Of a DNA stretch of 64,000 nucleotides, positions 11,154 through 62,262 are shown one piece after another. The position numbers were made by a program, and so were the translations under genes. The number at the start of each line of letters is the position of its first letter. Positions within the stretch are counted from its first letter, which is position 1. The DNA comes from Haematococcus lacustris (lineage: Eukaryota > Chlorophyta > Chlorophyceae > Chlamydomonadales > Haematococcaceae), in the NCBI GenBank assembly GCA_030144725.1, contig JASKMD010000008.1, positions 5,583,056 to 5,647,055 of the forward strand, read 5' to 3'. Below the pieces are notes generated by a model. That model was not told the origin of the DNA. It ran no database searches and saw nothing but the letters and a program-made list of their open reading frames with translations.

Positions 11154-14100
11154 ATGAGTGCCTTACTAGAGAAAATGGGCTTGGGGAAGAAGCCGGACGT
11201 TAAAGGTGACATCCTTAGTTGCTGCCCGCGCTCCAGGCAGGCTGTGAAACAGCACCTGGCTCACCTCGTGCGCGCAGAGCAAGTTCGCAACAGCCAGCGC
11301 GAAATTAGGAAAGGAACCCGAGGTGCGTAATGTGTGGGTCCCAGATTCTGGGGCTAAGAGCTTAGTCCCTACTGAGGGCCAAGTCCACAGTAACACAGGC
11401 AAGCCTCCTGATGCTGGGCCACCATGAGCTTCGTGATCTCAGCCTTGTTGTGCCACCAAGCCTTGCATATGGCCAGATCATGGGCTTTAAAGGGTTTACG
11501 CACCACCCTGCATGCTAGACTTGTTGACGTGCAGCCCTGCAGCACATTCCCCTACTCTCATGGGCAGAGGAAGTGTTGTCTGTCATCTGAACTGGGTGAC
11601 TGCGACCTACAGCCGGTACCAATACGTGATTCACTACCCCAACCCGAAGGCTGGGCAATCTATGTTGGCATGAATCACATGCCATGATGTAAGAAACAGC
11701 TTCAGCATTGCGCGGTGCACACACATACTTGCAATAGGACGTGCAGCCCCTTGTCCCTCACTAGGGCCTCCATTTTAGCCGGAACTAGCAGCCACTAGCA
11801 GGCACTAACTAGCTCCGGCTAAAATAGTGTTATTGGGCTGTGTGGAGTAAACCCAGTGCACTAATGGCACATGAGCCGCCTACCACCTACAATATTGCCT
11901 GACCCGAGGGCTATATGATGTAGAGTTGGCATGACAAAACATGCACTAAGTGTAAGCTGATGACAGCTCAAATGGGGGGGCACACACTACTGTGCCTCAG
12001 CAGGCTGCTGCTGCTGCTCCTGGGCCTTGGGGGGCTTGTCTCGCAGCCGCTTGTAGCCCAGGCCAGGGTACTCCTTGCCCTTGGCTGGCAGAGCTCCCTG
12101 GTCTGGCCAGAAGCACAGCTCCAGCGGGCGCCACCTGCTCTCCCCAATGCGCTGCATGTTCAGCGCTGCATTGCAGTCCCTGTCCAGCCACCTGCCTGGC
12201 TGTGGTGCTGGCTTGGCCTTGGCAGCCTTGCTCTTGCCCTTGGTGGGCTCAGCTGCCCCTGGCTCAGCCTTGGCGCGCTTGCTGCGCTGGGCTGGCTGGG
12301 GTGTGCTGGGCCCTGGCTCTGAGGCTGCTGCCTGTGTTGCTTCCTGGCTGCTGCGGGGGGCCTGTGGGGGCCTGCGGGGGGCCACTACAGGGCACCACAT
12401 CAGGCCCCTCACTGGTTGGCCACGCTCCTGGCTCCAGGCTGGGCGCACCAGGCGCTCTTCCACCTGCCCTGCTGGGGGCCTCCAGCCTGCAGGCCTGGTG
12501 GCACTGAGTGTGTTCAGCTCCACCTCACAGGGCTGCTTGCCATTCACTGCTGAGCTGACCCGGCTGGTGCGGTGCTCATCGACAAGCACCACCCTGCCCC
12601 CATCCTGGTCTTTGCCCCTGGGCCTGCACACCACCTTGCGGCAGGCACGCAGCACCGCATCAGCACCCCACCCACCCCCAGTGCCAATGGTAGCAGCGCC
12701 AAAGAACACCACCAGCTGCTTGGCATGCCCATGGCGCTTCATGGACAGCTCCTCCATGCCCTCCTCCAACTGCAGCCATGCACACAAGGCACACACACAT
12801 GGTGGCTGACATGGTGGCACACAGTTAGGCATGGCACAGTCAAGTACTTTTTCGTTTCGTTACCTCTCAGTCCCTTTCCCTCCCTCCCTCCCACCTACCC
12901 ACCCACCCACCCTCACCTTGTTAAAGAACTGCTCCAGCGCCCGGTCCTGGGATCCGTACAGCCTCAGCCGCTGCCGTGCCCACTTGGGGTCCAGGTACAC
13001 CTCCCACACCGCATCCCAGGTGGCCAGAGTGACGGTGATGTGCTTCAGGTTGGCCTCCAGGGAGGTGCCGGCTGAGCTTGCTGCTGCCAGGTGCAGGAGG
13101 TGGGGCTTGATTGGAGCCAGCCACCGCTGTGTGTCACGGCGGGCATTGTTCAGGCCGCTGGCATGCTTCACCTCCCCCTTGGTCAGCTTCCACCGGCGCA
13201 GCTGGTCTGCCTTGAGCTGGCCTGTTGCTGGATCCCACACCCCAGAGGCTGCGCTGACTGCCTGGGTGAAAGTACAGTGATGTTGAAGCCTAGGAAAGGG
13301 AACAGGGCTAACCCAATCCAGCCAATAGGACGTGCAGCCCTGCAGCTTGCGCCCCATGCTTACCAGCAGAGGCAGGAGCAAGGTTAGCAACATCTGGCCT
13401 GTTATCAGTGTTATTGTTGTTGCGTAGGGTAACAGTGAGGGGCTGGGCAGCTGCCATTCTATTCGCCATCATGTGCACTAGGTGATGCATCAAGCAAGCA
13501 TGTTACCACAGTACCTGATGCGGCTGTGACCTGCACTACAGTACCTGACGTGGCCTGGGGCTGGTTGAGCTGGCTGGAGGCTGTCCGGCTGCAGACATTG
13601 ACCGCGACATCCTGGAGCTGCGGCGTGCCGAGGCAGGGCTGCTGAAGGACATCAAGGCCGCAGCCAAAGCCAACAATGAGGCAGGGACCCGCACCCTGGC
13701 CAAGTCCCTCATACGACTTAGGAGCCAGGTATGTCACACCCGCTGTGGTGCCGTCACTGCTGCCCTTCAAGAGTAGTAGTAGCGGTGTTGTTATGCTGAG
13801 GAGGCAGGGCACAGGCAGGGGTGCTAGCCAACCTCTGAATGTTGGTTCATCAAAGGGAAACTGAAGTGAAGGCAAACTTTGGTGAACTACCACTACTCAG
13901 CCTCTGCACCAGCTGCACTCCTTATGGGGCCCACAGCCCCATCTGAGTCCATAGCTCCCCTGCCTCCCTGGTCGTGCTTGCCTGCGTCACCCCACCTCAT
14001 GAGTGGCCTGACTGCCTGGCTCGCTGGTTGCCTGCAGATTACCAAGCTGCAGGGATCCAAAGCCTCACTGCAAGGGGTGTCCATGCAGATGACGGTAAGC

Positions 14101-16202: not shown

Positions 16203-16880
16203 TCAGGTTGTTTGACCGGGACGTGTCAACCGTTTCCCTTTTCACCGTTGTACAGCCCCCTTGTCCCTCACTAGGGTCTCCATTTGAGCCGGATCAGAAG
16301 TACCTACTAGCCACTAGCAGCCACTAACTAGATCCGGCTCAGATAGTGTTATTGGGCTGTGTGGAGTAAACCCAGTGCACATGGCACATGAGCCGCCTAC
16401 CACCTACACTTCGAGCAACTTGGGTTTCCCGTGAAAAATACACGCTCATGTGAAATCACACTAGTGCTATGTTACTAGGGTGTGTTGCTAGGGTATGCTA
16501 GGGTGCGCTAGGAACGCTAACACAGTCACCCAGCTGGGCGTGGAGCAGTCACCGTTGTACAGCCGGCCTAGGGCTACGGCCTTCTGAGCTGTGCAGATGG
16601 GATAACCTAACGGTGCCACCTAACCGTGCCAAAGCCGGGCAGGCCGAGCCGGGAGTGGGGGTACGTGCTCAACTAGCCTCTGTTGCGCAAGTGGCGGTGC
16701 GAGTGGTCACAATGGCCAGCTACAGCAAGTCACCCCCATCACAAAACATTGAACCCATCACAAAGGGATGTGTGTGAGCAAGGGCTATAGGAGGTTGAGT
16801 GATGGAGGCACACCCCCCAGATGGAGGGAGGAGCTGTCGCGGGTGATAGGCATGCTAGCAGTAGCCTGTACACCAATGAG
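16203..16880 (+). pseudogene. family-2 Fanzor remnant, interrupted by a small family-1 element
   Basis: The piece GTTTGACCGGGACGTGTC near 16208 matches the RuvC-III exon of the 46.9-kb copy (YDRDVS). After an insert (16258-16549) the homology resumes: GGGCTACGGCCTTCTGAGCTGTGC, CCGTGCCAAAGCCGGGCAGG and TGTTGCGCAAGTGGCG parallel 46950-47070, followed by the family-2 3' tail at 16735-16880. It is too damaged to encode protein. Confidence 0.65.
16258..16549 (-). mobile_element. ORF-less family-1 Fanzor derivative (copy G) with 15-bp flanking duplication
   Basis: CACCGTTGTACAGCC at 16243-16257 is repeated at 16550-16564. The 292-bp insert starts with the family-1 right end and hairpin in diverged form (left arm TTTGAGCCGGATC, right arm GATCCGGCTCAGA), then jumps to a left-end segment (CTTCGAGCAACTTGGGTTTC) also present upstream of copy F at 62296. 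It has no ORF. Confidence 0.75.
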
Positions 16881-26689: not shown

Positions 26690-27181
26690 TGGAGGCCCCC
26701 AGCAGGGCAGGTGGAAGAGCGCCTGGTGCGCCCAGCCTGGAGCCAGGAGCGTGGCCAGCCAGTGCGGGGCCTGGTGTGGTGCCCGGTAGTGGCCCCCCGC
26801 AGGCCCCCACAGGCCCCCCGCAGCAGCCAGGCAGCCACACAGGCAGCAGCCTCAGAGCCAGGGCCCAGCACACCCCAGCCAGCCAAGCGCAGCAAGCGCA
26901 CCAAGGCTGAGCCAGGGGCAGCTGAGCCCACCAAGGGCAAGGGCAAGGCTGCCAAAGCCAAGCCAGCACCACAGCCAGGCAGGTGGCTGGACAGGGACTG
27001 CAATGCAGCTCTGAACATGCAGCGCATTGGGGAGAGCAGGTGGCGTCCACTAGAGCTGTGCTTCTGGCCAGACCAGGGAGCTCTGCCAGCCAAGGGCAAG
27101 GAGTACCCTGGCTTGGGCTACATGCGGCTGCGAGACAACCCCCCCAAGGCCCAGGAGCAGCAGCCTGCTGAGGCACAGTAG
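26690..27181 (+). pseudogene. C-terminal Fanzor coding fragment, copy B
   Basis: The frame is open from WRPPAGQVEERLV to the TAG at 27179-27181 (about 160 aa). It includes RGLVWCPVVAP, the Lys/Pro-rich linker and GRWLDRDCNAALNMQRIG. No start codon or N-terminal domains are present; an in-frame TGA lies just upstream in the 57-bp repeat. Confidence 0.8.
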
Positions 27182-27711
27182 TGTGTGCCCCCTCCTCTTA
27201 AGCTGTCATCAGCTTACAATTAGTGCATGTTTTGTCATGCCAACTCTACTGCATAGCCCTCGGGTCAGGCAATCATGTAGGTGGTAGGCGGCTCATGTGC
27301 CATTAGTGCACTGCAGTGTTTTTTTTTTCAAAACAGCCAAGGTGATGCTCGTAACGAAGGGTCCAGGACCATCACATGGCTGAATACGCAGTTGGTCCCG
27401 ACTGGTAACGAAAAACAAGTATCGCAGCATTTTCTTAGGCCAAAAGAAGTTTTTATATATTTTTTATACATAAAAAGACATTTTCGGTTACGAAGCAGCC
27501 GAGGCCAGCCAACGCAAGGGTCCGTTTGGTAACGAAATCCAGGCCTAAAAAACGAGCTTTTGGTTCCGATCGTTACGTATTACGCAAAAAAAACCACTGG
27601 TGCACTGGGTTTACTCCACACAGCCCAATAACACTATTTTAGCCGGAGCTAGTTAGTGGCTGCTAGTGGCTGCTATTTCCGGCTAAAATGGAGGCCCTAG
27701 TGAGGGACAAG
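27182..27711 (+). ncRNA. candidate guide-RNA scaffold of copy B, disrupted by a MITE
   Basis: It corresponds to 11750-11986 of copy A in opposite orientation. The hairpin (TTTTAGCCGGAGCTAG ... TTTCCGGCTAAAA, 27639-27688) is intact but is now about 430 nt from the ORF because of the insertion at 27314-27599. Confidence 0.45.
27314..27599. mobile_element. hAT-like MITE (286 bp) with 8-bp target duplication
   Basis: Ends CAGTGTTTTTTTTTTC and GCAAAAAAAACCACTG are imperfect terminal inverted repeats. GTGCACTG flanks both sides (27306-27313, 27600-27607). Uninterrupted copies of the host repeat (for example 11855-11870, reverse) carry the empty site once. An 8-bp duplication plus CAGTG termini fit the hAT superfamily. 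The interior is AT-rich and non-coding, with GGTAACGAAA repeated inside. Confidence 0.85.
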
Positions 27712-27877
27712 GGGCTGCGTAGTTACCTGAGGGCCCAAAACCAGATGTTGGCCCAAAACAAGATGTTGGTTCGTGTGGGTTGGGCCCAAAACAGACAATC
27801 CATAGTTGACCAGCTAATGCTTGGGCCAGGGCGGCCGGTCATGCTCGTTCATTTGGCGAACGGCCTTCATGCTTGAG

Positions 27878-28115
27878 CACTCCTACAAATTAATCCCTGC
27901 ATTCTTCCCTGCGTTTTTGGCCAACCTTGTCCGATTGGGATAAAATTTTGATAGATCGTGTTTTGCGAAAAAATAAAACATATTGTTTTTTGAAAATTTT
28001 CTCAAAAAACAATATGTTTTATTTTCTGCAAAACATCATCTTTCAACTTTTCAGCCCAATCGGAGAAGGTTGGCCAAAAACGCAGGGAAGAATGCAGGGA
28101 TTAATTTGTAGGAGT
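27878..28115. mobile_element. palindromic foldback MITE (238 bp)
   Basis: The two halves are nearly perfect reverse complements, starting ACTCCTACAAATTAATCCC and ending GGGATTAATTTGTAGGAGT, with an AT-rich centre (AAAACATATTG / CAATATGTTTT). GAGC flanks both ends as a possible 4-bp target duplication. There is no coding capacity. Confidence 0.85.
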
Positions 28116-29008
28116 GAGCGGCACAGCTCAAGGCCAGGCCGCTAGCACAGCTGCAGGGGGCACCGCTTGCTCTCCCCAACACACTGCCGGTCCAGCACCT
28201 CTCCCGATGTAGTAAACTGCCCCATGAGGGAGCGTCAGCAGCCTTGACCTTGCCAGCCTTGGCATGCTGGGGTGTGCTAGGAATGCTGATTCAGCAATGC
28301 TGAGTCCAGGCTCATAGGCTGCTGACTGTGCGCTGGATTAGAGGCATCGTCGGGCACCAATTGAAGGCTAGATGCAACAGTCGGAGGCTCATTTGCCCGT
28401 TTGGAGGCACACAATTCTTGAGCTGAAAGATTGGAAATCTTGGTGTAGCATGAGGGCTGTAGGTCACTAGGGAGCGCAATCTAGATCTAGCGCAATCTAG
28501 CGCAATCTAGATCTAGCGTTTTTTTTTACTTATGCCATGGGATGACTCCGCCCACTGAGCGTGACCCGGAATGTTAAACCATCTTTAACCAGTCGCGCTC
28601 TACCGCCCACTCAACCAGCTGCAGGCAGGCTAGGTGCATCTATCTGCCCGCCTGCCTGCAAGGCACTATGTACAGTTGTGTGAGGTCAGAATGCATGTTT
28701 GGCTGAGGCATAAGTGCCGCCAAGCATGTTGAGTTGTGCGGCTATTGTTGCCATAGCGAGTGTTTACATACTCATCGACAGTCTCGGAGTCCCGTAGTAG
28801 TAATGCAATGTACTTACATCGTGACGACGTCGTAAAGAATTAAAATAGACGTTTTGGTGTAGGGGTGGAAACTTGAAAGATTTGGGATTTTGGTGTAGCA
28901 TGAGGGCTGTAGGGGTAAGTATATCAAAACAATTGCACAACACGACCATCTGCTCGCTAATCGTGCAGCTCTCGTGCAGCTATCGTGCAGCTCACTTAAA
29001 CATAATCA
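28116..29008. other. intergenic region upstream of the plastid NFU gene
   Basis: No gene recognised. It holds CTAGATCTAGCGCAAT repeats near 28480-28515 and two copies of GGTGTAGCATGAGGGCTGTAGG (near 28441 and 28892, split here as a family-2 terminal motif; see 47270). The second lies about 95 bp before the NFU start codon and may be part of its 5' region. Confidence 0.5.
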
Positions 29009-32000: not shown

Positions 32001-35000
32001 TCCAGCCAATGCCTTCACGCTCCCATCAGCCCAGGGCACTTCAGGGAGGATCCTTGCAGGGAGGTGGGGTTGTGACGGGCAGCAAGGGGCGCCACATGGC
32101 AAAGGGCATCATCCACTGGTTCACTCCTCTCAGGCTACACCTTCATATGCCAGTCTGCCCAGGGCGCTTGGGGCAGCAGTGCTTGAGCCTGGCAGGAGGT
32201 GGGGCTCCCAGGGGCCACCCCACCCCACCCCACCCCACCCCACCCCACCCCACCCCACCCCACCCCACCCCACCCCACCCCACCCCACCCCACCCCACCC
32301 CACCCCACCCCACCCCACCCCACCCCACCCCACCCCACCCCACCCCACCCCACCCCACCCCACCCCACCCCACCCCACCCCACGCCACGCCACGCCACGC
32401 CACGCCACGCCACGCCACGCCACGCCACGCCACGCCACGCCACGCCACCCCTCCCCACCCCACCCCACCCCACGCCCCGCCACCCCAGGGGCAACATCAT
32501 GCAAGGGGCTGTGGCCACACGGCCTGTCCCCTTGGACCTGGCTGCAGGGAGGACATGATGAGGGCGGTGGAGGGTGATAACTGGAGCGCTGTCATTGACC
32601 AGCAAACACAGCAGGCTCTGGGCCAGGCCCACACGCCCCTGCCCCATGCCTCTGGCCCTCCCTCCGCTAGCAGCAGTAGCAATGGCAATGGGACCAAGGC
32701 TGCGGCAGGCTCCCCCACATCTGCCAGCAATGGCAGCGCCAGCAGCAGCAGCAGCAGCAGCAATGGTGACAGGAGTGCTGCTGGTGTGGCTGCCGGTTCC
32801 CCCTCACCTGGCCCCAGCTCAGGGCCCCTGGCCTCCCCCTTTGCATCAGCCACGGTGCACAGGCGGGTTGGTGAGAAGGGGCAAGCCAGCAAAACAGTGG
32901 ACATGACGATAGCCAGTGTGGACGCTGCCCTGGAGGAGGTGAGCAGCATGACAAAGCCGCTGGGGCAGGGCGCACACCACACCACACACCACCACCCCAC
33001 CACCCCACCCCACCCCACACCACATTACACTTACACTGTGGTTAACTCTGTAGGTGCGGCCTTACCTGATGGCTGATGGCGGGGACGTGGAGGTGGTTGA
33101 GGTGAAGGATGGCTATGTGTACTTGCGGCTGCAGGTGAGGTGGGCCCTTCCGCCTGCAGCACTGCGTGCCTGAGTCCTGCTCCTCCAGCTGCTGCTGCGC
33201 CTGAAGCATTGCTCGGGGTTTGAACTCAGCACCTGTCTCAACTGTGATGTTCGGCCAGGCCCTACTACACCTGTCTCATGTGTGATGACCTTATCAAGCT
33301 GCATGTGCTCCTCTTTGTGACCTTTGTGCATATGGCTGCCTGCCTAGCGTCACTGACTGCCTACTGCTTGTGGTTCCACATGTGTGTCAGTCGCCCTCTC
33401 CCACTGATGGATGTGCCTGCTGCTGCTGCTGCTGCTGCCATCAGGGCTCCTGCTCCACCTGTGCGTCCTCCCAGTCCACCATGAAGATGGGCATTGAGCG
33501 TGCCCTAAAGGCTGCGTTTGGAGACGCCCTCCTGGAGGTCGTGCAGGTCAGCCCCACCGCCTGGCACCTGTCAGGCTGCTGGCCATGTCCACCGCCCACA
33601 TGCACACATTCCACTTCGCCCACATGCACACATACCACTTCGCCCACATGCACCCGTCAGCCAGGTGTCCAATCTAGGCTATGCTGGTCTCGATGCTGAG
33701 GACATTACCATCCTTATCACCAACACATGGTATAGCATGGCATTGCATAGTGTGGATGTGTGAGGAATGAGCCAGGAGTGAGAAGCATAGAGGCTTGCAC
33801 CATGGCATTGCAAGCCAGACCGTTTCAGCAGGAACAAATAGGGGTGGAGTTGCTGGCTTGGTATTGCTTGCTAACTCTGGCGCATGGAGTTAAAATTGAG
33901 CACATGTGGTAAGGCTGGAGGTGGTGATGGTGATGGCTCACACCTGTGCAGCCGTCAGCCATTTGGCTGCTTGGCCGCGCTCCCCATCTAGGGCTTCAGG
34001 CCTTTCTGCAAAGCACTTCAAAGCTAGGTGTCGAAAGCCAGGATGCACAACAAAGCTGGGTGCGTAAACAAAGGTGAGGCTGCAGGTGAGCTGGGAGATA
34101 GGCACCATATGGACCACAGTTTGGAGTCCCCTCTCCCTGGTGTAGAAGTCCCTGGGCTTGGCTGACCCAAGCCAAGCGAGCCAGCGGGGCGCTGTGTTGG
34201 GCCCTCTCCTCTGCTGCTGCCTCCCTCCCCTCCCCAGCTGCTCCTGCCCTACGGGGTGTTATATGCAGGTCGACAAGGTGGATGTGGCCACTGCCAGTGT
34301 GGCTAACATCAATGCCCACCTTGACATGCTGCGTGGAGCCATCCACAATTTTGGGGGCAGCGTCGAGGTGGTGGAGGTCCAGGGCAGCTCCTGCACTGTC
34401 CTTTACAAGGTAGGCCCCTGGCCCTGTACCTGCTGCTGCCTGACCTCCAGCTGCTGCTGTCTGACCTGTACCTGCTGCTGCCTGACCTCCAGCTGCTGCT
34501 GTCTGACCTGTACCTGCTGCTGCCTGACCTCCAGCTGCTGCTGTCTGACCTGTACCTGCTGCTGCCTGACCTCCAGCTGCTGCTGTCTGACCTGTACCTG
34601 CTGCTGCCTGACCTCCAGCTGCTGCTGTCTGACCTGTACCTGCTGCTGCCTGACCTCCAGCTGCTGCTGTCTGACCTGTACCTGCTGCTGCCTGACCTCC
34701 AGCTGCTGCTGTCTGACCTGTACCTGCTGCTGCCTGACCTCCAGCTGCTGCTGTCTGACCTGTACCTGCTGCTGCCTGACCTCCAGCTGCTGCTGTCTGA
34801 CCTGTACCTGCTGCTGCCTGACCTCCAGCTGCTGCTGTCTGACCTGTACCTGCTGCTGCCTGACCTCCAGCTGCTGCTGTCTGACCTGTACCTGCTGCTG
34901 CCTGACCTCCAGCTGCTGCTGTCTGACCTGTACCTGCTGCTGCCTGACCTCCAGCTGCTGCTGTCTGACCTGTACCTGCTGCTGCCTGACCTCCAGCTGC

Positions 35001-36231
35001 TGCTGTCTGACCTGTACCTGCTGCTGCCTGACCTCCAGCTGCTGCTGTCTGACCTGTACCTGCTGCTGCCTGACCTCCAGCTGCTGCTGTCTGACCTGTA
35101 CCTGCTGCTGCCTGACCTCCAGCTGCTGCTGTCTGACCTGTACCTGCTGCTGCCTGACCTCCAGCTGCTGCTGTCTGACCTGTACCTGCTGCTGCCTGAC
35201 CTCCAGCTGCTGCTGTCTGACCTGTACCTGCTGCTGCCTGACCTCCAGCTGCTGCTGTCTGACCTGTACCTGCTGCTGCCTGACCTCCAGCTGCTGCTGT
35301 CTGACCTGTACCTGCTGCTGCCTGACCTCCAGCTGCTGCTGTCTGACCTGTACCTGCTGCTGCCTGACCTCCAGCTGCTGCTGTCTGACCTGTACCTGCT
35401 GCTGCCTGACCTCCAGCTGCTGCTGTCTGACCTGTACCTGCTGCTGCCTGACCTCCAGCTGCTGCTGTCTGACCTGTACCTGCTGCTGCCTGACCTCCAG
35501 CTGCTGCTGTCTGACCTGTACCTGCTGCTGCCTGACCTCCAGCTGCTGCTGTCTGACCTGTACCTGCTGCTGCCTGACCTCCAGCTGCTGCTGTCTGACC
35601 TGTACCTGCTGCTGCCTGACCTCCAGCTGCTGCTGTCTGACCTGTACCTGCTGCTGCCTGACCTCCAGCTGCTGCTGTCTGACCTGTACCTGCTGCTGCC
35701 TGACCTCCAGCTGCTGCTGTCTGACCTGTACCTGCTGCTGCCTGACCTCCAGCTGCTGCTGTCTGACCTGTACCTGCTGCTGCCTGACCTCCAGCTGCTG
35801 CTGTCTGACCTGTACCTGCTGCTGCCTGACCTCCAGCTGCTGCTGTCTGACCTGTACCTGCTGCTGCCTGACCTCCAGCTGCTGCTGTCTGACCTGTACC
35901 TGCTGCTGCCTGACCTCCAGCTGCTGCTGTCTGACCTGTACCTGCTGCTGCCTGACCTCCAGCTGCTGCTGTCTGACCTGTACCTGCTGCTGCCTGACCT
36001 CCAGCTGCTGCTGTCTGACCTGTACCTGCTGCTGCCTGACCTCCAGCTGCTGCGGCAAGTGAAGGGAATGAGGGTGTCATTCTGGACACAGTGTGACGTG
36101 AACTGCATGGAGCTGCACCCCTGAGGCTGTGCCGCTGGTGCCCTGTGTAGGGCCCGCCCGCCATTGCCAAGGGTGTCATGGCTGCCATCAAGGATCGCTT
36201 CCCGTCCATCAAGGAGGTGGTGCTACAGTGA
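29009..36231 (+). CDS. plastid iron-sulfur scaffold: GIY-YIG-like domain fused to two NifU-like domains
   Basis: NFU proteins carry and transfer Fe-S clusters in plastids. Exons: 29009-29164 (tentative; Ser/Arg/Ala-rich transit-peptide-like leader MQKSQSRTVVPG...), 29873-29954, 30311-30378, 30463-30613, 30833-30914, 31607-31705, 32548-32938, 33054-33134, 33445-33546, 34269-34409, 36151-36231 (TGA). All junctions keep phase. Domains: GIY-YIG-like (GVYALY...LQYIGFSRN, then PELCASV and WPPGNGP), as in the N terminus of plant GRXS16; a Ser/Ala-rich linker; NifU domain 1 (VRPYLMADGGDVEVVEV, with the cluster ligands in GSCSTCASS); and NifU domain 2 lacking the CxxC (NINAHLDMLRGAIHNFGGSV ... AIAKGVMAAIKDRFP). 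The double NifU arrangement is that of plant plastid NFU1-3. The GIY-YIG fusion is what I find unusual. Confidence 0.85.
31376..31475 (+). pseudogene. fragment of the complex I 30 kDa gene inside an NFU intron
   Basis: About 100 bp (GGGATGGCTGAGTGCTTGAT onward) matches NAD9-type exon 2 at 37349-37455 with a few substitutions and a deletion of 24 nt that keeps frame. It lies in the intron between NFU exons 30914 and 31607 on the same strand. Confidence 0.85.
31745..31850. repeat. GGTCACACACCTT tandem repeat
   Basis: About seven imperfect copies of a 13-15 bp unit begin a few tens of bases after NFU donor 31705. Confidence 0.8.
32216..32480. repeat. (ACCCC)n then (CACGC)n pentanucleotide arrays
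   Basis: About 33 ACCCC units switch abruptly to about 13 CACGC units (32382-32446), then return to ACCCC. It lies in an NFU intron just upstream of exon 32548. Confidence 0.95.
34427..36051. repeat. 42-bp minisatellite, about 39 near-identical copies, in the last NFU intron
   Basis: The unit contains GACCTGTACCTGCTGCTGC followed by CTGACCTCCAGCTGCTGCTGT. Copies are essentially identical. Its length is a multiple of three and frames on both strands are stop-free, giving artefactual ORFs of 550-820 aa. The flanking donor (AAG|GTAGGC, 34410) and acceptor (TGTGTAG|GG, 36150) join conserved NifU sequence, so the array is intronic. Confidence 0.95.
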
Positions 36232-37001
36232 TACCCCAAGCCCACAGCAGCAGGGGTCATCCCCAGGATACCCGGGATCCCGATGTTCTCCAGTGTTGTT
36301 GAGGGTCTGGCATGGGCCAGCATCACTGGGTGTGGAAGGAGAGTGTGGTGCCCAGGCTCAGTGGCAAGGCGTGCGCGGTGAGCAGTGCAGCAGTACAGGA
36401 CCATGTTGATGAGCATTGAGCAAGCATGCATATGACATGCTGCATTACACAACATGTCGTTGCTGTACACAGCAAGCTGAGGCGGTAAGTTTGGGAAGGT
36501 GGGACATGGAGCAGCCAGGGCGCCCGCCGCTGTCCAAGCTTAGCCTGCCGCTGTCTCTGATGTCGCTGCACCCGGGCTGGCTGCTAGTGGCCACTACTGG
36601 TCCGACGCAAATGGAGGCCCTAGTGAGGGACAAGGGGGCTGGCTCCCGCTACCGCGGTACCGCAGTACACGCTCGGCGCATTCCTTCCGCGTCTTTCTGC
36701 GCAGCTGTGATCATTGTGCCGAAGATGGTTTTCAGAGAGGGTCGCGTGTACATAATCACGGTTGCTATCTACAGCATGGCTGAGTCGATGCGAAATGCAG
36801 TGTTGCATGGCTTGAATATCGTAGTAATCGCCAGATGCAGTTTATGCATAGCAGTACGTGCAGAGGAGCTGTCTGTAAAGAAGCGTAAAGGGAGTGGAGG
36901 TCCTGGGAGGTTCTTGCTTTCTGGAGAACATGCATTGACGTCCATGCCATGGCCACAGGTAGCTCCGTGTGTGCTGCTGCTCGGCTGCTCCTGGTGCCGT
37001 G
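36232..37001. other. NFU-complex I intergenic region
   Basis: It holds one fragment of the family-1 Fanzor right end (copy H, 36565-36635) and otherwise nothing recognised. Confidence 0.5.
36565..36635 (+). mobile_element. Fanzor right-end fragment, copy H
   Basis: GGCTGCTAGTGGCC and ATGGAGGCCCTAGTGAGGG, ending GACAAGGGG, match the terminal part of the conserved right end. The proximal hairpin arm and the ORF are missing, and the distal arm is mutated. Confidence 0.7.
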
Positions 37002-40655: not shown

Positions 40656-40683
40656 GCTCTCTCATTCCAAGCATGTCCTGCCA

Positions 40684-40925
40684 GCCCCTTGTCCCTCACT
40701 AGGGCCTCCATTTTAGCCGGAACTAGCAGCCACTAGCAGCCACTAACTAGCTCCGGCTAAAATAGTGTTATTGGGCTGTGTGGAGTAAACCCAGTGCACT
40801 AATGGCACATGAGCCGCCTACCACCTACATGATTGCCTGACCCGAGGGCTATGCAGTAGAGTTGGCATGACAAGACATGCACTAATTGTAAGCTGATGAC
40901 AGCTCAAGAGGAGGGGGGCACACAC
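40684..40925 (-). ncRNA. candidate guide-RNA scaffold, copy C
   Basis: Same block as copy A, with hairpin arms at 40712-40727 and 40748-40763. Flanking DNA beyond the right end is TGTCCTGCCAG on the plus strand. Confidence 0.45.
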
Positions 40926-41506
40926 TACTGTGCCTCAGCAGGCTGCTGCTCCTGGGCCTTGGGGGGGCTTGTCTCGCAGCCGCTTGTACCCATGCTCAGG
41001 GTACTCCTTGCCCTTGGCTGGCAGAGCTCCCTGGTCTGGCCAGAAGCACAGCTCCAGCGGCCGCCACCTGCTCTCCCCAATGCGCTGCATGTTCAGCGCT
41101 GCATTGCAGTCCCTGTCCAGCTGGCTGTGGTGCTGGCTTAGCCCTGGCAGCCTTGCCTTTGCCCTTGCCCTTGGTGGGCTCAGCTGCCCCTGGCTCAGCC
41201 TTGGTGCGCTTGCTGCGCTTGGCTGGCTGGGGTGTGCTGGGCCCTGGCTCTGAGGCTGCTGGCTGTGTGGCTGCCTGGCTGCTGCGGGGGGCCTGTGGGG
41301 ACCTGCGTGGGGCCACTACCGGGCACCACATCATGCCCCGCACTGGCTGGCCACGCTCCTGGCTCCAGGCTGGGCGCACCAGGCGCTCTTCCACCTGCCC
41401 TGCTTGGGGCCTCCAGCAAGTTCAATTCTGCTCACGCTATACTATTCGTAGACACCACGCTCAGCGCCGGAAACCGCACTAGGTGACTACGCAGCCCTAA
41501 GTCAAC
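40684..41506 (-). mobile_element. 5'-truncated Fanzor element, copy C
   Basis: Right end with hairpin (40684-40925), then the Fanzor C-terminal region on the minus strand, then the 57-bp piece (41424-41480) and GTGACTACGCAGCCC. It has the same internal breakpoint as copy B. The product region has lost the stretch around the first part of RuvC-III: it reads PAPQPAGQGLQCSAEH in frame, with GRWLDRD frameshifted. Confidence 0.75.
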
Positions 41507-41723: not shown

Positions 41724-41770
41724 GGTTGACTTGTAATGTTTTCATGTTTACCGCTGTTCCTGCTCAGCCC

Positions 41771-41970
41771 CTTGTCCCTCACTAGGGCCTCCATTTTAGC
41801 CGGAACTAGCAGCCACTAGCAGCCACTAACTAGCTCCGGCTAAAATAGTGTTATTGGGCTGTGTGGAGTAAACCCAGTGCACTAATGGCACATGAGCCGC
41901 CTACCACCTACATGATTGCCTGACCCGAGGGCTATGCAGTAGAGTTGGCATGACAAAACATGCACTAAGA
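41771..41970 (-). ncRNA. candidate guide-RNA scaffold, copy D (ORF-independent)
   Basis: Full-length right-end block with intact hairpin, but not attached to any nuclease ORF. If transcribed it would be a trans-acting guide locus. Transcription is not demonstrated. Confidence 0.4.
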
Positions 41971-47890: not shown

Positions 47891-48829
47891 ATCCAGGGAC
47901 ACAACAGGTGACACTACATGAAGACGTACACAAGGCTTGTCAAGCACTCGCTATCACAAGCATGCATCACTAGTACCGTTCTAGTACTCATGCGTCCACA
48001 CTACGCCCATCTCCACCCTTACGCGCACTGCACCCCTTCACACATGACTGTATGACCCACTGACACCTAACAACTTGTCACAACAAGCTATTAGGCCAGA
48101 GTGCCAGGCTCAGTCAGCATGAAAGCCCCACTCCACACACAACACTTCCGTCCCAGTTCCTCTCCGTTTACTTCTGCTCCGCTGCCACCACACATGACTA
48201 TGCTACAAGACCATCTGGCCCTGGGCAAACATGCCAAACCAGAGGCTGTTGCTCCTGAGCAATGGTCCCACACCCCATGCCCATCACAGTCCATGTGCAA
48301 TTTGCAGCCATGATGCCATGCAGAAGTACACTGCCCCGCATCCATACAGCACCATACACATGGCTTGCCTACAGCTCCTGCCCTAATACATCAAAACTGT
48401 CCCGCAAGCTGAGCTGATGATGCAGTGCACGCAGTTTCATGTCGGAGAAGCACACCACTAAGTATGTGCAAGCTGTGGGTGGGCTAGCATCCAAGGAATG
48501 CTAGCCGCATGGCATGCAGACACCATGGCCTGAGCCACTGAATGTGCCTAGCTGCAGCCAGTCTGCATGCACATGGCCAAAACAGTTCCCAAGACCCCCT
48601 GCTAACCTATAGCATGCACATTAGATGCACATGCAGGCACGGTCAACAAAGCTATTTGCACTGCAGCAAGCATCCCCCTTGTGGTGTGCAGAAACACAGC
48701 AGGGCTTGCCACTAATGCACCTCTTGTTCTGTGGCCAACCAATGATAACAGCCTAGATACCTGTAATGCCAGCCATGTGCTTGCATTCAAGATGTTTGGG
48801 ACAGTGATGCAGGTGCACATTGCCACAGG
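47891..48829. repeat. 0.94-kb direct duplication, copy 1 (pair with 63067-64000)
   Basis: Over its whole length the two copies differ by scattered substitutions and small indels (for example TGCAGGCACG versus TGAGGCACG). Indels break the reading frames differently, so it is unlikely to be coding. The second copy runs off the window end. Confidence 0.95.
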
Positions 48830-50589: not shown

Positions 50590-51037
50590 ATGCCCCGTTT
50601 AGCTCAGGCTCGGGCTCAGGCTGTAAGTTTGGGGGCAGGGGCCAGCAGTGGAACTGTGTTGCGGGCCTCAGTCACCACTGCCACCTACCAGGCGCAGGAT
50701 GCAGAGGCGTCGGTGGGCTCTGCAAGCAAAGCCATAGCCAGGCAGGTTGCTGGACAGGGACTGCGATTGGGGAGAGCAGGTGGCGCCCACTGGAGCTGTG
50801 CTGGTGGCCAGAGCAGGCAGCTCTGCCAGCCAAGGGCAGAGAGTACCCTGGTCTGGGGTACAAGCGGCTGCAACACCGCCCACACAAGGCCCAGCAGCAG
50901 CAGGAACAGCAGTCTGCTGAGGCACAGTAGTGGGTGCCCATTTCTTGAGCTGTCATCAGCTTACAATTAGTGCATGCAGGTCATGCCAACTCTAGACTAT
51001 AGCCCTGAGGGTCTGGCAACAGTGTAGGTGGTATACA
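50590..51037 (+). pseudogene. Fanzor remnant, copy I, with RuvC-III deleted
   Basis: GGACAGGGACTGCG is followed directly by ATTGGGGAGAGCAGGTGG. The about 24 nt that encode AALNMQR in other copies are gone. The downstream ORF end and part of the right end (to GTGTAGGTGGTA) are recognisable, but the terminal hairpin is missing. Confidence 0.75.
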
Positions 51038-51039
51038 CT

Positions 51040-53130
51040 CATGCACCATGTCCATGTGCAATGGGTATACGTCACAAAGCACCTGAACACCATCTTGAGT
51101 AGTCCCGCTGATGAATCCTAGTGGTCCCTAGGGGGCTGCCCAGCTGTCGTCATTTCTTTGGGGGTGTGAAAGGGACTACACATATATAGGGCACATGTGG
51201 GCCAGTGGCTGGGCCCAAACCGTGACATAGCAGACCATGCTTTCAAGAAGCATTCTCAAACTTGAGCTCCCGTTGCCGTCAGTCCCATTCAGAGAAGTCT
51301 GAAGAAGCATATGGTGGAGTCCAGCATGCTGTGCGGACAAAGGTGGGCCACCTACGAGTGTTGAGAGACGCTCTGGCCCTGCAGCAGCAGCAGCACTTCC
51401 AGGCATGCCACAACACCAGCCGTTGCATTTGATGACGCGTCCTTAGCTGCTGGTTAGCTGCTGACAGATGAGACCTGCAGGGGAGACCTGCAAGGGAGAC
51501 CTCAGCGGAGACCTCAGCGGAGCCAGGGCAAAGATCCTGGCCTATGGCGCTGTTGACGAGGCGGAGTTGCGCAGGTCAGGTCCGCAAACACAATCCTGAA
51601 TGTGACACTGGCCTGCACCTAATGTTATGCTGTGCAGAGAATGTGGCTTCACCTTCACCAACCAGACCTTCACCACCCAAGTAGCCACAGGAGCACCCCT
51701 GTCAGACCTGGCTGCTTACAACATGGTTATGGGCACTCAACATGTGAGTGGGCATAAATGTCGTACCCTGTGATGCCAGGCCTTGCTGGCTTTGCTCACA
51801 ATGATACAGACTGGGGCAGCAGTATAACGAGAGCATGCATGTGGAGGACAGTGGGGTGTTTTTGACCATGGTGAGAGCCGTCTCTCCATTCCTCCGCCAG
51901 GTCCGCAAGGCTGCCCTGCTGCACATTCCATAGTCACATTCCATAGTCATTTATAGCGATAGCTGTTCGCTGTAAAACTTCTAAAGATCAGTAAGATAGT
52001 ATTCAGGGGTGCGGCCAATGGCGGGGGTGACCATAGTCTTTTGAGCATCATTCACGATGAAGGGTTGCTTACCCTACGCACGCATATCCCTCGGTGTCTG
52101 ACTCTTACCGGAATGCTTCCAGAATATGCTTCCAGGATCTGCATTGCTTCTAGATGGGCCTACCAAGTCCACACAATTGGTGAGGTGGCCGAGCTTGAGG
52201 ACGCCATGAACGAGCGCTTGCAAGCCATGCCACTACCCCAGCTGCAACTGCTCTGCAGAACCCACCGGCAAGGTCCAGGCCACTTTGTCATTATGCTGTC
52301 ACACAAGCCCTACCACTCACCCTCAACGACATAAAGCAGGACCTATGTGAGCTTGCCACTGTTTGAGTCATTGAGGATGAGGTTTGAGACATTTTCTGTC
52401 ATGTGTCCTCTTCCTCCCTTTCCTTCCTCGACTTTTTCAACACCCCACACACTGGCACACATGCGCACCATGTGGGCAGGTGGGCGGTTGGCTACACGTT
52501 CAAGTACAGCAAGGGACGCTCACCAGAGCTGGCAGCTGAGGACTGTGAAGCTGTGAGGCGCAATCCGGCCAGGTTTGCCCGCCCTGTCTGCAGCATGAGG
52601 TCACAACATGCCAGTGAGAGGCTGGGCTGCCGAGGTCGTTCTAGCACCAGTGAGGCGCACCCTGGCTCACTTGACCTCTTGAATGACCGGATTGCACCGT
52701 TGCAGCCTTTCAAGGGCGACTTCATCCAGCTCCACAGGCTGGAATACACTGTGGACGACATCCAACGCACAGGTCAGCGTCAGCACATGTGAGCACGTCA
52801 CCTCTGGCTACTACTCTGACGCTCAACACACTACAATCGTGTATGCATGAACACGCTTGCAGGGCACCGGCTGCACACCCACGCTCAGCATTGGGAGGCC
52901 AGCGACAAGAACACCAAGGAGCTATACAAGCACTTCAGCGATCTAGCCTCAGGTTGCGTCGGGGCGCTTGGGTGCTGCTGCCCAACGCATGGACCAGGTG
53001 GGCTTAGGACCTACCGCACCATGTTCAAGAGTGTGGTGGAGGTCGGTTGTCCCGCCTTGGCTGCCAACGGCGTCAATGTGCAGCTCTCAGAGCGTACTAG
53101 GAGCACGCATGACACTACTCATCACTAGCC
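51040..53130 (+). pseudogene. unassigned coding-like fragments, probably transposon-derived
   Basis: Exon-like pieces include CRECGFTFTNQTFTTQ (about 51640), VAELEDAMNERLQAMPLPQL (about 52190), TFKYSKGRSPELAAEDCEAV (about 52500), LNDRIAPLQPFKGDFIQLH (about 52680) and HWEASDKNTKELYKHFSDLA (about 52890). A block near 51777-51820 and the block 53034-53218 recur inside the large inverted arms. I cannot assign a family. Confidence 0.35.
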
Positions 53131-53218
53131 TGAGCTGAAGCTGTTGCCAACGAAGCTGAAGAACTTCGCTGAGGCGTTTTTGCACGGTGTTTCGCTGCCA
53201 TGGGGCATCACGCTGGTG
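53034..53218 (+). repeat. third copy of an inverted-arm segment
   Basis: Same orientation as 59897-60084 and inverted relative to 54190-54377. It ends CACGCTGGTGCAG exactly where Fanzor copy E begins. Confidence 0.9.
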
Positions 53219-53725
53219 CAGCCCCTTGTCCCTCACTAGGGCCTCCATTTTAGCCGGAACTAGCAGCCACTAGCAGCCACTAACTAGCTCCGGCTAAAAT
53301 AGTGTTATTGGGCTGTGTGGAGTAAACCCAGTGCACTAATGGCACATGAGCCGCCTACCACCTACATGATTGCCTGACCCGAGGGCTATGCAGTAGAGTT
53401 GGCATGACAAAACATGCACTAAGTGTAAGCTGATGACAGCTCAAGAGGAGGGGGGCACACACTACTGTGCCTCAGCAGGCTGCTGCTCCTGGGCCTTGGG
53501 GGGCTTGTCTCGCAGCCGCTTGTACCCCAGGCCAGGGTACTCCTTGCCCTTGGCTGGCAGAGCTCCCTGGTCTGGCCAGAAGCACAGCTCCAGCGGACGC
53601 CACCTGCTCTCCCCAATGCGCTGCATGTTCAGCGCTGCATTGCAGTCCCTGTCCAGCCACCTGCCTGGCTGTGGTGCTGGCTTGGCTTTGGCAGCCTTGC
53701 CCTTGCCCTTGCCCTTGGTGGGCTC
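53219..53725 (-). mobile_element. truncated Fanzor element, copy E
   Basis: Right end with hairpin, then the C-terminal 80 or so codons on the minus strand (GRWLDRDCNAALNM intact; TAG at 53462). It is broken at GGGCTC and followed by AGCTCAAC repeats. Confidence 0.8.
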
Positions 53726-53810: not shown

Positions 53811-55034
53811 GCTGCTGACCTAGAACGCCAACCCAAGGTGGGCAGAGGGGAGGGGGCGGCAAGCGTAGCCACCGTTGCTCACTTCTGCTTTCAATTCCAA
53901 GTGTGGTGTTGGGAAGTGGTCACCAACGTCAACACCAGCACCAGGGGGCTGTGAGGGCCATAGGGGACTGGACTGCCTGCCAGTCCGTATCACTGTGAGC
54001 AAAGCCAGCAAGGCCTGGCAGGATACTGGTGCACTGGCATGCCTCAAAGTGCTGGTGCTGAAATCGGTCCTAGAATCGAACCAGTTGTACTCACGGCGCA
54101 AAGGCCCCTAGTCTTTAGCCTGCCCACATGCCTGCCAGTCACCCACCCTGCCTGTGTCTCATCTTCGCCGGCAAGGCAGCAAACTGCACCAGCGTGATGC
54201 CCCATGGCAGCGAAACACCGGGCAAAGACGTCTCAGGTAAGTTCTTCAGCTTCGTTGGCAACAGCTTTAGCTCAGGCTAGTGATGAGTAGCGTCATGCGT
54301 GCTCCCAGTAAGCTCTGAGAGCTGCACATTGACGCCGTTAGCAGCCAAGGCAGGACGACCGATCTCCACCACCAATCAAGTCTCCCGGTAAAAGTTCCCC
54401 CTATAGGGGGGAAATTTGTTGGCTGTGGATGGGGGAAGTTTCAAAGTGCCCAACCGCGATACACGACCAGCACAAGCGACTAGCGAGCCCTCACACTGGC
54501 TTGTTAGGCTCCTCCGTATGCTTTGACGCGCAACCTTGACTGCCCAGAGGCGGTTGGTAGGGGGCGGTTACTGCCCAGCAATCGCAGCGCAGCACCCATA
54601 TGATGGAACGCTACTATCTCGATGAGCGTAAGCGCGCAGCCCTAAAGGCACTTGCTAGGGGAGCCGCATCGGCGGGCCAAGAGGACAGGCCAGCATCCTC
54701 CACAACAAGCAAAAGTAGCGACGGACACAGATGCGCCCAACTCAGTGCCAGACGAGCTGCAGGAGGACCCACAGCAGGAGAAACACCTGCGGCCAGCAGC
54801 TTTCCTGCCTTGGCAGGAGCGCAGGGAGCGCTCCTATGCCCGGATGCAAGGGTGTGGTGTCTCCATGGAAGGTCAGCCATCGCTAGTCAGCTGCACTGCA
54901 GACTGCGCCATGCGCCACCAATGCGTGTCACCATGTGTGCTTGTGTGTGGAGTCATGCAACCTTCCTGGAGGCTCTCAATGCCGCTCACTATCCATTGGC
55001 ACTGTACCCATCTCAGCAGATCAAAACAGACAGC
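53811..55034. repeat. large inverted arm, left (1,224 bp)
   Basis: Reverse complement of 59233-60456 with no net length difference and only scattered mismatches (for example GTAAGCGCG versus GTAAACGCG). It includes the start of the putative KDZ gene (MMERYYLDERKRAAL at 54600) and a CCCCCTATAGGGGG palindrome near 54403. Confidence 0.97.
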
Positions 55035-59118: not shown

Positions 59119-59232
59119 ATGCACATCAAGTCACACAGCAGTCATGCAGCCAGAGGTAATGCAGAGATCAGCTTTCTCGCTTCTCTCAATTCTCACTTGT
59201 TGTAGTTGTGCTCGCTTGAAGCTGAAGTTGAG

Positions 59233-60456
59233 GCTGTCTGTTTTGATCTGCTGAGATGGGTACAGTGCCAATGGATAGTGAGCGGCATTGAGAGCCTCCA
59301 GGAAGGTTGCATGACTCCACACACAAGCACACATGGTGACACGCATTGGTGGCGCATGGCGCAGTCTGCAGTGCAGCTGACTAGCGATGGCTGACCTTCC
59401 ATGGAGACACCACACCCTTGCATCCGGGCATAGGAGCGCTCCCTGCGCTCCTGCCAAGGCAGGAAAGCTGCTGGCCGCAGGTGTTTCTCCTGCTGTGGGT
59501 CCTCCTGCAGCTCGTCTGGCACTGAGTTGGGCGCATCTGTGTCCGTCGCTACTTTTGCTTGTTGTGGAGGATGCTGGCCTGTCCTCTTGGCCCGCCGATG
59601 CGGCTCCCCTAGCAAGTGCCTTTAGGGCTGCGCGTTTACGCTCATCGAGATAGTAGCGTTCCATCATATGGGTGCTGCGCTGCGATTGCTGGGCAGTAAC
59701 CGCCCCCTACCAACCGCCTCTGGGCAGTCAAGGTTGCGCGTTAAAGCATACGGAGGAGCCTAACAAGCCAGTGTGAGGGCTCGCTAGTCGCTTGTGCTGG
59801 TCGTGTATCGCGGTTGGGCACTTTGAAACTTCCCCCATCCACAGCCAACAAATTTCCCCCCTATAGGGGGAACTTTTACCGGGAGACTTGATTGGTGGTG
59901 GAGATCGGTCGTCCTGCCTTGGCTGCTAACGGCGTCAATGTGCAGCTCTCAGAGCTTACTGGGAGCACGCATGACGCTACTCATCACTAGCCTGAGCTAA
60001 AGCTGTTGCCAACGAAGCTGAAGAACTTACCTGAGACGTCTTTGCCCGGTGTTTCGCTGCCATGGGGCATCACGCTGGTGCAGTTTGCTGCCTTGCCGGC
60101 GAAGATGAGACACAGGCAGGGTGGGTGACTGGCAGGCATGTGGGCAGGCTAAAGACTAGGGGCCTTTGCGCCGTGAGTACAACTGGTTCGATTCTAGGAC
60201 CGATTTCAGCACCAGCACTTTGAGGCATGCCAGTGCACCAGTATCCTGCCAGGCCTTGCTGGCTTTGCTCACAGTGATACGGACTGGCAGGCAGTCCAGT
60301 CCCCTATGGCCCTCACAGCCCCCTGGTGCTGGTGTTGACGTTGGTGACCACTTCCCAACACCACACTTGGAATTGAAAGCAGAAGTGAGCAACGGTGGCT
60401 ACGCTTGCCGCCCCCTCCCCTCTGCCCACCTTGGGTTGGCGTTCTAGGTCAGCAGC
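59233..60456. repeat. large inverted arm, right (1,224 bp)
   Basis: Reverse complement of 53811-55034. The two arms enclose 4,198 bp. Confidence 0.97.
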
Positions 60457-60745: not shown

Positions 60746-60769
60746 GGCAACCGCTGGGAACATCCAGCC

Positions 60770-61008
60770 CCTTGTCCCTCACTAGGGCCTCCATTTTAGC
60801 CGGAACTAGCAGCCACTAGCAGCCACTAACTAGCTCCGGCTAAAATAGTGTTATTGGGCTGTGTGGAGTAAACCCAGTGCACTAATGGCACATGAGCCGC
60901 CTACCACCTACAATATTGCCTGACCCGAGGGCTATATGATGTAGAGTTGGCATGACAAAACATGCACTAATTGAAAGCTGATGACAGCTCAAAGTGGGGG
61001 GGCACACA
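60770..61008 (-). ncRNA. candidate guide-RNA scaffold, copy F
   Basis: Conserved right-end block with hairpin arms TTTTAGCCGGAACTAG (about 60793-60808) and CTAGCTCCGGCTAAAA (about 60829-60844), starting just after the TAG of the only full-reading-frame copy. Confidence 0.5.
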
Positions 61009-62262
61009 CTACTGTGCCTCAGCAGGCTGCTGCTGCTGCTCCTGGGCCTTGGGGGGCTTGTCTCGCAGCCGCTTGTACCCCAGGCCCGGGTACTCCTTGC
61101 CCTTGGCTGGCAGAGCTCCCTGGTCTGGCCAGAAGCACAGCTCCAGCGGACGCCACCTGCTCTCCCCGATGCGCTGCATGTTCAGCGCTGCATTGCAGTC
61201 CCTGTCCAGCCACCTGCCTGGCTGTGGTGCTGGCTTGGCTTTGGCAGCCTTGCCCTGGGCCTTGCCCTTGGTGGGCTCAGCTGCCCCTGGCTCAGCCTTG
61301 GTGCGCTTGCTGCGCTTGGCTGGCTGGGGTGTGCTGGGCCCTGGCTCTGAGGCTGCTGCCTGTGTGGCTGCCTGGCTGCTGCGGGGGGCCTGTGGGGGCC
61401 TGCGGGGGGCCACTACCGGGCACCACATCAGGCCCCTCACTGGTTGGCCACGCTCCTGGCTCCAGGCTGGGCGCACCAGGCGCTCTTCCACCTGCCCTGC
61501 TGGGGGCTTCCAACCTGCAGGCCTGGTGGCACTGAGTGTGTTCAGCTCCACCTCACAGGGCTGCTTGCCATTCACTGCTGAGCTGACCCGGCTGGTGCGG
61601 TGCTCATCCACGAGCACCACCCTGCCCCCATCCTGGTCTTTGCCCCTGGGCCTGCACACCACCTTGCGGCAGGCACGTAGCACCGCATCAGCACCCCACC
61701 CACCCCGTGGGGGGAGTGGGGGTAGGGGGGGAGCATCAGGGGGTTGGGGAGGCTGCACGGCTGGAGGCTGAGGGGCGCTGGGGGAGCCTGGGGTAGGGTA
61801 GCCCACAAGACAGGTGAGAAAAATGCGCAGGACAAACAAGGAAGCTATGAAACGGAGCTGAGAGTGGATCTCAGCCCGTAGCCGGAGATGCTCCCTCAGC
61901 TTTCGCCTGGTCTTCTTGCAGCCGCGCAGCACTGCGCCCTCGGGGACCTTAATCACCTGCGGCCAAGCACAATTAACATTTTGACAGGCCATTTTGACAA
62001 GCCAAGACACAAGGCGGGGTCAACACAAACAGTGCGGGGGCACATAAGGCGGGAGCAGACCCACACCTGACGTTGACGCGTGGCCCAGCCATCACGGCGC
62101 GCCTGTCGTTGCTTGCCTTGGGCGGAACGAGAAACTGCGATGGAACCAACAGGAGCGACGGGTTATCTCACAGCGCAAAACTCACGTCTAGGGCTCACGT
62201 CACGGCTGGGGACACGCACCTTTACGTTTCTTGTCGCTACCCTTCCGCTTCTTCTTAGCCAT
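61009..62262 (-). CDS. Fanzor-like protein with N-terminal NLS and internal deletion
   Basis: Three exons, 62262-62220, 62116-62067 and 61956-61009, join in phase to about 346 aa. The first exon is MAKKKRKGSDKKRK, a strong nuclear-localisation-like basic cluster. Exon 2 is also basic (KQRQARRDGWATRQRQ). Exon 3 has VIKVPEGAVLRGCKK and LREHLRLRAEIHSQLRF, a Pro-rich linker (PSAPQPPAVQPPQPPDAPP), then GWGADAVLRACRKVV, VVLVDEHRTSRVSSA, the Lys/Pro-rich linker and GRWLDRDCNAALNM. Relative to copy A, the helical domain (WKLTKGEVKHASG...) is missing and no RuvC-I DxG motif is seen, so nuclease activity is doubtful although the frame is intact. It is a candidate truncated, RNA-binding relative. Confidence 0.75.

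Follow-up and report, generated by a model that had tools for sequence, protein, structure and literature searches.

Fanzor1 elements of Chlamydomonas are often 5'-truncated and 3'-intact, and were called Helitron2 by Bao and Jurka in 2013. In excerpts of that report the hairpin at their 3' end is read as the Helitron2 transposon end, truncated copies are mostly flanked by duplications of ~7-19 bp, and in two further Helitron2 elements, labelled CQu, end structures are reported to carry compensatory changes (PMC3627910). Fanzor proteins are also known from OMEGA systems. In these systems the omegaRNA occupies the right end of the element, downstream of the stop codon, and is retained at ghost loci, and the biological role of Fanzor is described as unknown (excerpts of PMC10432273). 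For Fz1, omegaRNAs of 75-150 nt are given in PMC11423790. Searches of the literature for Fanzor together with Haematococcus, or Fanzor together with covariation, returned no title or abstract concerning the Haematococcus lacustris element described below. In the TnpB-bearing IS200/IS605 elements, which PMC10432273 also discusses, one right-end structure could serve the transposase and the guide RNA.

In this study, we analyse a hairpin at the right end of Fanzor1-like copies in a 64,000-nucleotide stretch of H. lacustris DNA (the window, whose positions are used throughout) and at right ends across the genome. On balance, we read it as the 3'-terminal structural signal of a 3'-anchored, Fanzor1-bearing element, most likely mobilised in a Helitron2-like manner and probably doubling as part of a guide RNA. 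The strand-specific signal in its stem is the new element of this analysis.

Copy A, its Fanzor1-like gene and its relatives in the window

Copy A is a 5'-truncated insertion flanked by two 18-bp duplications. Its sense strand is the minus strand, its 3' end is at 11749, and hairpin and tail lie within its last 77 bases. Its features are as follows.

11732..11749, minus: right 18-bp target-site duplication GGGCTGCACGTCCTATTG; the first G may be the element's own
11749..11766, minus: right-end tail CCCTAGTGAGGGACAAGG, with a mini-stem CCCT/AGGG inside it
11767..11986, minus: 3' untranslated block from the Fanzor stop to the tail, kept among close copies
11772..11825, minus: terminal hairpin, 17-nt arms 11772-11788 / 11809-11825, 94% complementary
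11987..12769, minus: last Fanzor1-like exon, DEHRTS...LDRDCNAALNM, including the stop codon; start set by eye from copy L028
12770-12916, minus: retained intron
12917..13265, minus: 3' part of the preceding exon, the remainder being truncated away; limits by eye, upstream limit approximate
13323..13340, minus: left 18-bp duplication GGGCTGCACGTCCTATTG; copy A sits between both duplications

The element ends with GGGACAAGG or one G beyond it, and the adjoining GGCTG is part of the target duplication. The tail has 2,168 exact matches in the H. lacustris assembly (308 Mb) and its reversed control none. Scanning the whole window for 16-bp arms with at most one mismatch gave seven places, of which five are the Fanzor-element hairpin and two are one palindrome near 28.0 kb; the same scan gave no place in three simulated windows. 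Folded as RNA, 11744-11832 of copy A reaches -46.2 kcal/mol (z -5.3) and 16257-16350 of copy G -46.0 kcal/mol (z -5.25). An Rfam scan of the window from 11 to 17 kb returned no credible match.

The coding part of copy A begins downstream of the RuvC-I aspartate. Copy L028 is full length, with ~3.76 kb between its duplications, and encodes a protein of 938 aa in five exons (limits placed by eye, using splice signals and open frames) which starts with MAKKKRKG and carries GIDPG, DEHRTS and LDRDCNAALNM. GIDPG is invariant in an alignment of 20 member proteins, DEHRT and DRDCN nearly so. The Fanzor1 motif of Bao and Jurka, i.e. the RuvC-I aspartate, [TS][TS] and RD in the C-terminal half, is present. 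A complete C4 zinc finger between [TS][TS]XX and RD was not found: in most sequences listed only PC...WCP with two cysteines is left. The TnpB-type profile PF07282 matches 12 of the 20 members at E <= 0.1 (best 3.2e-6), and its match to the L028 protein (0.11) falls below the cut-off. Sequence and profile searches of solved structures gave no Fanzor match. There are 648 protein relatives, and the 120 listed are all from H. lacustris and annotated as hypothetical proteins. Between L028 and L016, which has one stop, dN is 0.033 and dS 0.144 (dN/dS 0.23 over 886 codons); the protein is therefore under purifying selection. Judged by these sequence features, the gene is likely, though not proven, to be Fanzor1-like. 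In one annotated gene model, P0045 (H. lacustris QJQ45_009687), Fanzor sequence and a reverse transcriptase domain (E 1e-30, residues 879-1129) are combined; this model probably spans two elements.

Further copies and fragments in the window are listed by position.

16258..16548, minus: copy G, ~290 bp, without Fanzor; both end regions are present, and duplications of 16 bp flank it at 16242-16257 and 16549-16564
16283..16343, minus: hairpin of copy G, arms TTTGAGCCGGATC (16283-16295) / GATCCGGCTCAGA (16331-16343) in plus-strand letters
27600..27718, plus: copy C, right end with hairpin; an unrelated insertion at 27314-27599 interrupts its 3' block
36578..36637, plus: fragment with tail and 3' arm remnant alone
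40682..40937, minus: right-end block of copy D
41765..41969, minus: right-end block of copy E, without Fanzor
50732..51096, plus: diverged Fanzor 3' part, whose end has neither hairpin nor tail
53216..53474, minus: right-end block of copy F
60765..61021, minus: right-end block of copy H

The recurring block described in the initial annotation was found again at 40682, 41765, 53216 and 60765, split over 27169-27718 (plus) in copy C, and in diverged form at 16257. The hairpin lies between the Fanzor stop and the right end, in the last 80 nt, which is the site of known omegaRNAs according to excerpts of PMC10432273. That every Fanzor copy ends in the hairpin does not hold: copies G and E have no Fanzor, 36578-36637 is a fragment, and 50732-51096 is Fanzor without a hairpin.

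The 286-bp insertion in copy C starts with CAGTGTTTTTTT, ends with AAAACCACTG and has the 8-bp repeat GTGCACTG on both sides (by eye); it resembles a small inverted-repeat DNA transposon. Comparison of the window with itself also revealed a tandem array of identical copies with an 84-bp period (34423-36053). Other repeats are an inverted duplication of 1,228 bp with 99.8% identity (53811-55038 / 59229-60456), a direct duplication of 940 bp with 97.8% (47891-48829 / 63067-64000) and a 239-bp palindrome with 90% identity to its own reverse complement (27878-28116).

Covariation and strand polarity of the stem

Right ends gathered for the covariation analysis numbered 108. Eighty of them, on contigs C1, C2 and C11, were chosen regardless of the hairpin and joined with 28 ends with long upstream sequence (20 from the genome and 8 from the window, some being the same insertion). 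The 80 are from the first 85 tail places listed; five on C1 were omitted, four of which had been listed before. The upstream block is present in 87 of the 108 ends, 61 of which are distinct; by search expression it is missing from 20 of the 80 copies of this first sample and from 12 of the 40 copies of a second sample. The alignment holds 57 of the 61 distinct ends, L104, L059, L070 and wC being omitted as rearranged, deleted or redundant.

In these 57 ends, 93.1% of the pairs in the 13-pair stem are standard, against 88.8 in shuffles, 0 of 500 of which reached the observed value. Cells with a double change number 34 against 9.2 (reached in 0 of 500), pairs with a double change 5 against 2.7 (12 of 500), and further pair types 18 against 15.7 (33 of 500). 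Shifting the partner lowers pairing to 21-57%. Shuffle and slide controls together confirm the covarying hairpin proposed by the initial annotation. Its copy G arms were quoted correctly, as was the double change from T-A to G-C in them; its A.C mismatch stands for the plus strand only, and on the Fanzor-sense (minus) strand this position is G.U, which is paired in RNA.

Because related copies can beat shuffles without any structure, arms were swapped between clusters. In the 10 clusters of at least two haplotypes, own 3' arms paired at 11.5 of 12 positions and swapped ones at 10.8 (permutation p 0.004). Over all 18 clusters (core), p was 0.064 for standard pairs; restricted to Watson-Crick pairs, it was 0.016. 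The arms of L151 and L155 differ solely in one pair, T-A versus G-C. The paired bases of the hairpin change together, and therefore the fold is being kept.

Templated mutation can occur in palindromes, and several of the changes are few events inherited by many copies. Both points would suit a mutational origin of the covariation, in which template switching in a quasi-palindrome corrects one arm to the other and leaves a fold without function. Such correction would yield perfect pairs; yet two G.U pairs (7 and 11) are found in most haplotypes and A.C is rare, and own arms pair better than swapped ones. We regard this origin as very unlikely.

The stem also carries a strand-specific signal. 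On the sense strand, a change from C to T facing G gives G.U, and its counterpart on the opposite strand gives A.C; if selection did not act on one strand, both outcomes would be expected about equally often. In the flanking block of six clusters, changes of these two kinds stand at 84:83. Private changes from the Watson-Crick consensus in the stem gave 12:2 in the first sample (one-sided binomial p 0.004 versus flank). The second sample, 40 copies from other contigs of which 28 have the block, gave 9:4 and is weak alone; both combined gave 21:6 (Fisher versus flank p 0.011). The combined ratio was 24:6 with looser clustering (p 0.003) and 12:5 with stricter clustering (Fisher p 0.13). The arm swap and the counts after it drew on 54 distinct arm pairs, later on 76. 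The consensus states of 10 clusters comprise 96 Watson-Crick, 19 G.U, 0 A.C and 5 other pairs, and represent few independent events.

The G.U excess in the stem points to a folded sense single strand, and with these controls the selection on structure claimed earlier is supported in this form. The signal fits RNA, and equally single-stranded DNA of the same polarity. In single-stranded DNA, G.T is less harmful than A.C.

Insertion sites, 5' ends and introns

Duplications were sought in the 28 right ends with long upstream sequence. At least 13 bp of the right flank are common to the upstream region in 20 of these ends, 10-11 bp in 2 and none in 6; among 112 control stretches further downstream, the 13-bp level was attained by 4 and the 10-bp level by 15. 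The duplications are 13-19 bp long and start with GGCTG. In a motif table of 20 duplications, which is partly selected for GGCTG because of the rows left out, the left copy reads GGCTG in 19 and AGCTG in 1. This table holds 15 of the 22 matched rows and 5 from the larger sample. Left out were wA, wH and L024 (the same insertions or copies as L009, L011 and L023), L022 (10 bp), wE (11 bp, no GGCTG), wF (match 6.9 kb away) and L014 (no GGCTG). In unselected right flanks, GGCTG occurs within the first six bases in 67 of 80. No TAM-like motif was found in the 14 positions upstream of the 20 insertion sites (maximum 0.45 bit).

The 3' end is fixed and the 5' end variable, from full length down to ~40 bp (L038). 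L029 and L038 (and by eye L148) are inserted copies without the 5' arm, so the hairpin is dispensable in the inserted product. Six of the 80 ends (L057, L058, L078, L080, L083 and L103) have the 3' side of the hairpin alone and start in or near its loop (GCTGCTAGTGGCC), as if the 5' end of the element were often generated there. In L041, telomere-like TTAGGG/CCCTAA runs lie within the hairpin region, ahead of the 3' arm.

A diverged Fanzor locus, L111, has a last exon with 206 aa open and shares the 29-bp tail. The rest of its 3' block could not be aligned, and at this one locus no hairpin comparable to that of copy A was found. A hairpin beside the tail of L110 had been considered as a replaced stem. 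This was rejected, as a genome search matched its sequence to tail-less repeats elsewhere; it is an unrelated repeat adjoining a ~34-bp insertion.

The junction of the last two exons, searched with exact 18-base patterns, occurs 335 times unspliced and never spliced. Copies are therefore not made from mature mRNA. The element might still move by target-primed reverse transcription of an unspliced RNA, with a LINE-type reverse transcriptase recognising hairpin and tail. The fixed 3' end, the target motif at the 3' junction, the variable-length duplications and the 5' truncation to ~40 bp suit this route, and reverse transcriptase genes with long open frames are abundant. As in LINEs and SINEs, a fixed 3' end goes together with duplications and 5' truncation; copies without introns, as this route would give, were not found, the 335:0 junction count speaking against it. 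Moreover, the exact tail was found within 10 kb downstream on the same strand in none of 8 reverse transcriptase matches on C1, C2 and C11 (by eye; 8 of the 150 listed). We consider movement by reverse transcription unlikely. Many of the 150 matches listed lie in open frames of ~1,300-1,440 codons, and the H. lacustris genome may contain intact LINE-like elements.

With regard to Helitron2, the 3' subterminal hairpin is present, and short stems, TGTG..CACA and CCGTG..CACGG, were seen by eye near the non-fixed 5' end. Asymmetric terminal inverted repeats of at least 8 bp were not found between the first 140 and the last 172 bp of a single copy, L013. The RepHel profile PF14214 has 18 matches in the genome, 7 of them long; the tail is absent from two of these long loci, read over 9.9 kb each, which have 6.7 kb in common.

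A proposed role of the right end in mobility and guiding

The hairpin may primarily be an omegaRNA scaffold for Fanzor, with the RNA made from the 3' block and its guide taken from the flank; that Fanzor-less copies keep it would then reflect guide RNAs acting in trans. A structured segment lies after the nuclease stop and ends at the right end, as in omegaRNA loci, and its position and size match the known Fz1 omegaRNAs as given in PMC11423790. Ghost loci of Spizellomyces punctatus have an omegaRNA and no Fz (excerpts of PMC10432273), the sense strand of the stem tolerates G.U, and Fanzor coding is under purifying selection (see L028 versus L016). Several observations stand against it: the diverged locus L111 has the tail only, no conserved motif lies upstream of the 20 insertion sites, and the zinc-finger cysteines are reduced. 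GGCTG is found at the empty site and the occupied right junction alike; therefore a guide-adjacent motif would mark the element too, and a simple element-sparing TAM geometry is not seen. L111, the missing upstream motif and GGCTG at both junctions speak against simple homing, but they do not count against an RNA. A candidate guide-RNA role of the hairpin is plausible from its sequence context, and the scaffold is one of two or three readings which the data allow. That it is the primary role we hold to be possible rather than probable; both roles can hold together.

We favour, by a modest degree of confidence, the hairpin as a terminal signal for mobility. The element is 3'-anchored and mobile and carries an intron-containing Fanzor1-like gene, and the hairpin would fold as a single strand of Fanzor-sense polarity, to be recognised at the right end by the mobilising machinery. 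This machinery would most likely act on DNA in a one-ended, Helitron2-like manner; as the element showed no further gene, the machinery would most likely be supplied in trans. The right end would probably double as the 3' part of the Fanzor guide RNA, much as in IS200/IS605. Selection on the fold, its sense strand, the fixed end, the kept introns and the duplications starting with GGCTG are supported by the data; the recognising enzyme, the DNA intermediate and the guide-RNA use are inferred.

We count for the terminal mobility signal the covariation, own-arm pairing, G.U excess and L151/L155 pair swap, together with the fixed 3' end, duplications, variable 5' ends, Fanzor-less copies and intron retention. 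The Chlamydomonas Fanzor1 elements, which show the same syndrome in excerpts of PMC3627910, count for it as well. We count against it that L013 has no asymmetric inverted repeat, that the two RepHel loci read (of 7 long matches) have no tail within 9.9 kb, that copies without the 5' arm exist, that the second G.U:A.C sample (9:4) is weak and that the strictest clustering gives 12:5. Target-primed reverse transcription, too, would be in keeping with the duplications and the very short 5'-truncated copies.

Concerning the elements already described, CRe-1, CRe-2 and CRe-3, non-autonomous Helitron2 elements of C. reinhardtii, are alike in their intron-containing Fanzor1, intact 3' end, 3' hairpin, frequent 5' truncation, internal deletion and duplications of ~7-19 bp (excerpts of PMC3627910). 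According to the same excerpts they insert after TTTT and Helitrons with similar ends were found, whereas the H. lacustris duplications start with GGCTG, the upstream bases are uninformative, and no such Helitron was found in the few loci checked. Spu-1 Fanzor and the ghost loci of S. punctatus likewise have a structured right end after the stop which is kept without Fanzor; their omegaRNA was identified by small-RNA sequencing, with 30-nt inverted repeats and an upstream CA motif (excerpts of PMC10432273). In H. lacustris no such repeats or upstream motif were found, and the RNA is a candidate from sequence. One right end could serve both purposes here as in IS200/IS605, but no TnpA was seen, and duplications and introns are present. 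We group the H. lacustris element with the 3'-anchored Fanzor1 carriers of green algae; it is a variant which differs in its target motif and, in L013, in having no inverted terminal repeats.

The genome has about two thousand right ends, many without a complete Fanzor. It is conceivable, if doubtful, that each yields its own guide RNA, in which the covarying scaffold is constant and the guide, taken from the flank, differs. If so, a single alga would hold a library of guides spread over its genome for a few intact Fanzor1 nucleases, and in a eukaryote mobility and guiding would be served together by one right-end structure. With some two thousand right ends, many subfamilies, at least one gene copy free of interruptions and a strand-specific signal that can be measured, the family offers a natural data set on which of the two roles, mobility or guiding, maintains a Fanzor right end, or whether both do. 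The test of G.U versus A.C with a flank control is usable on the right end of any element.
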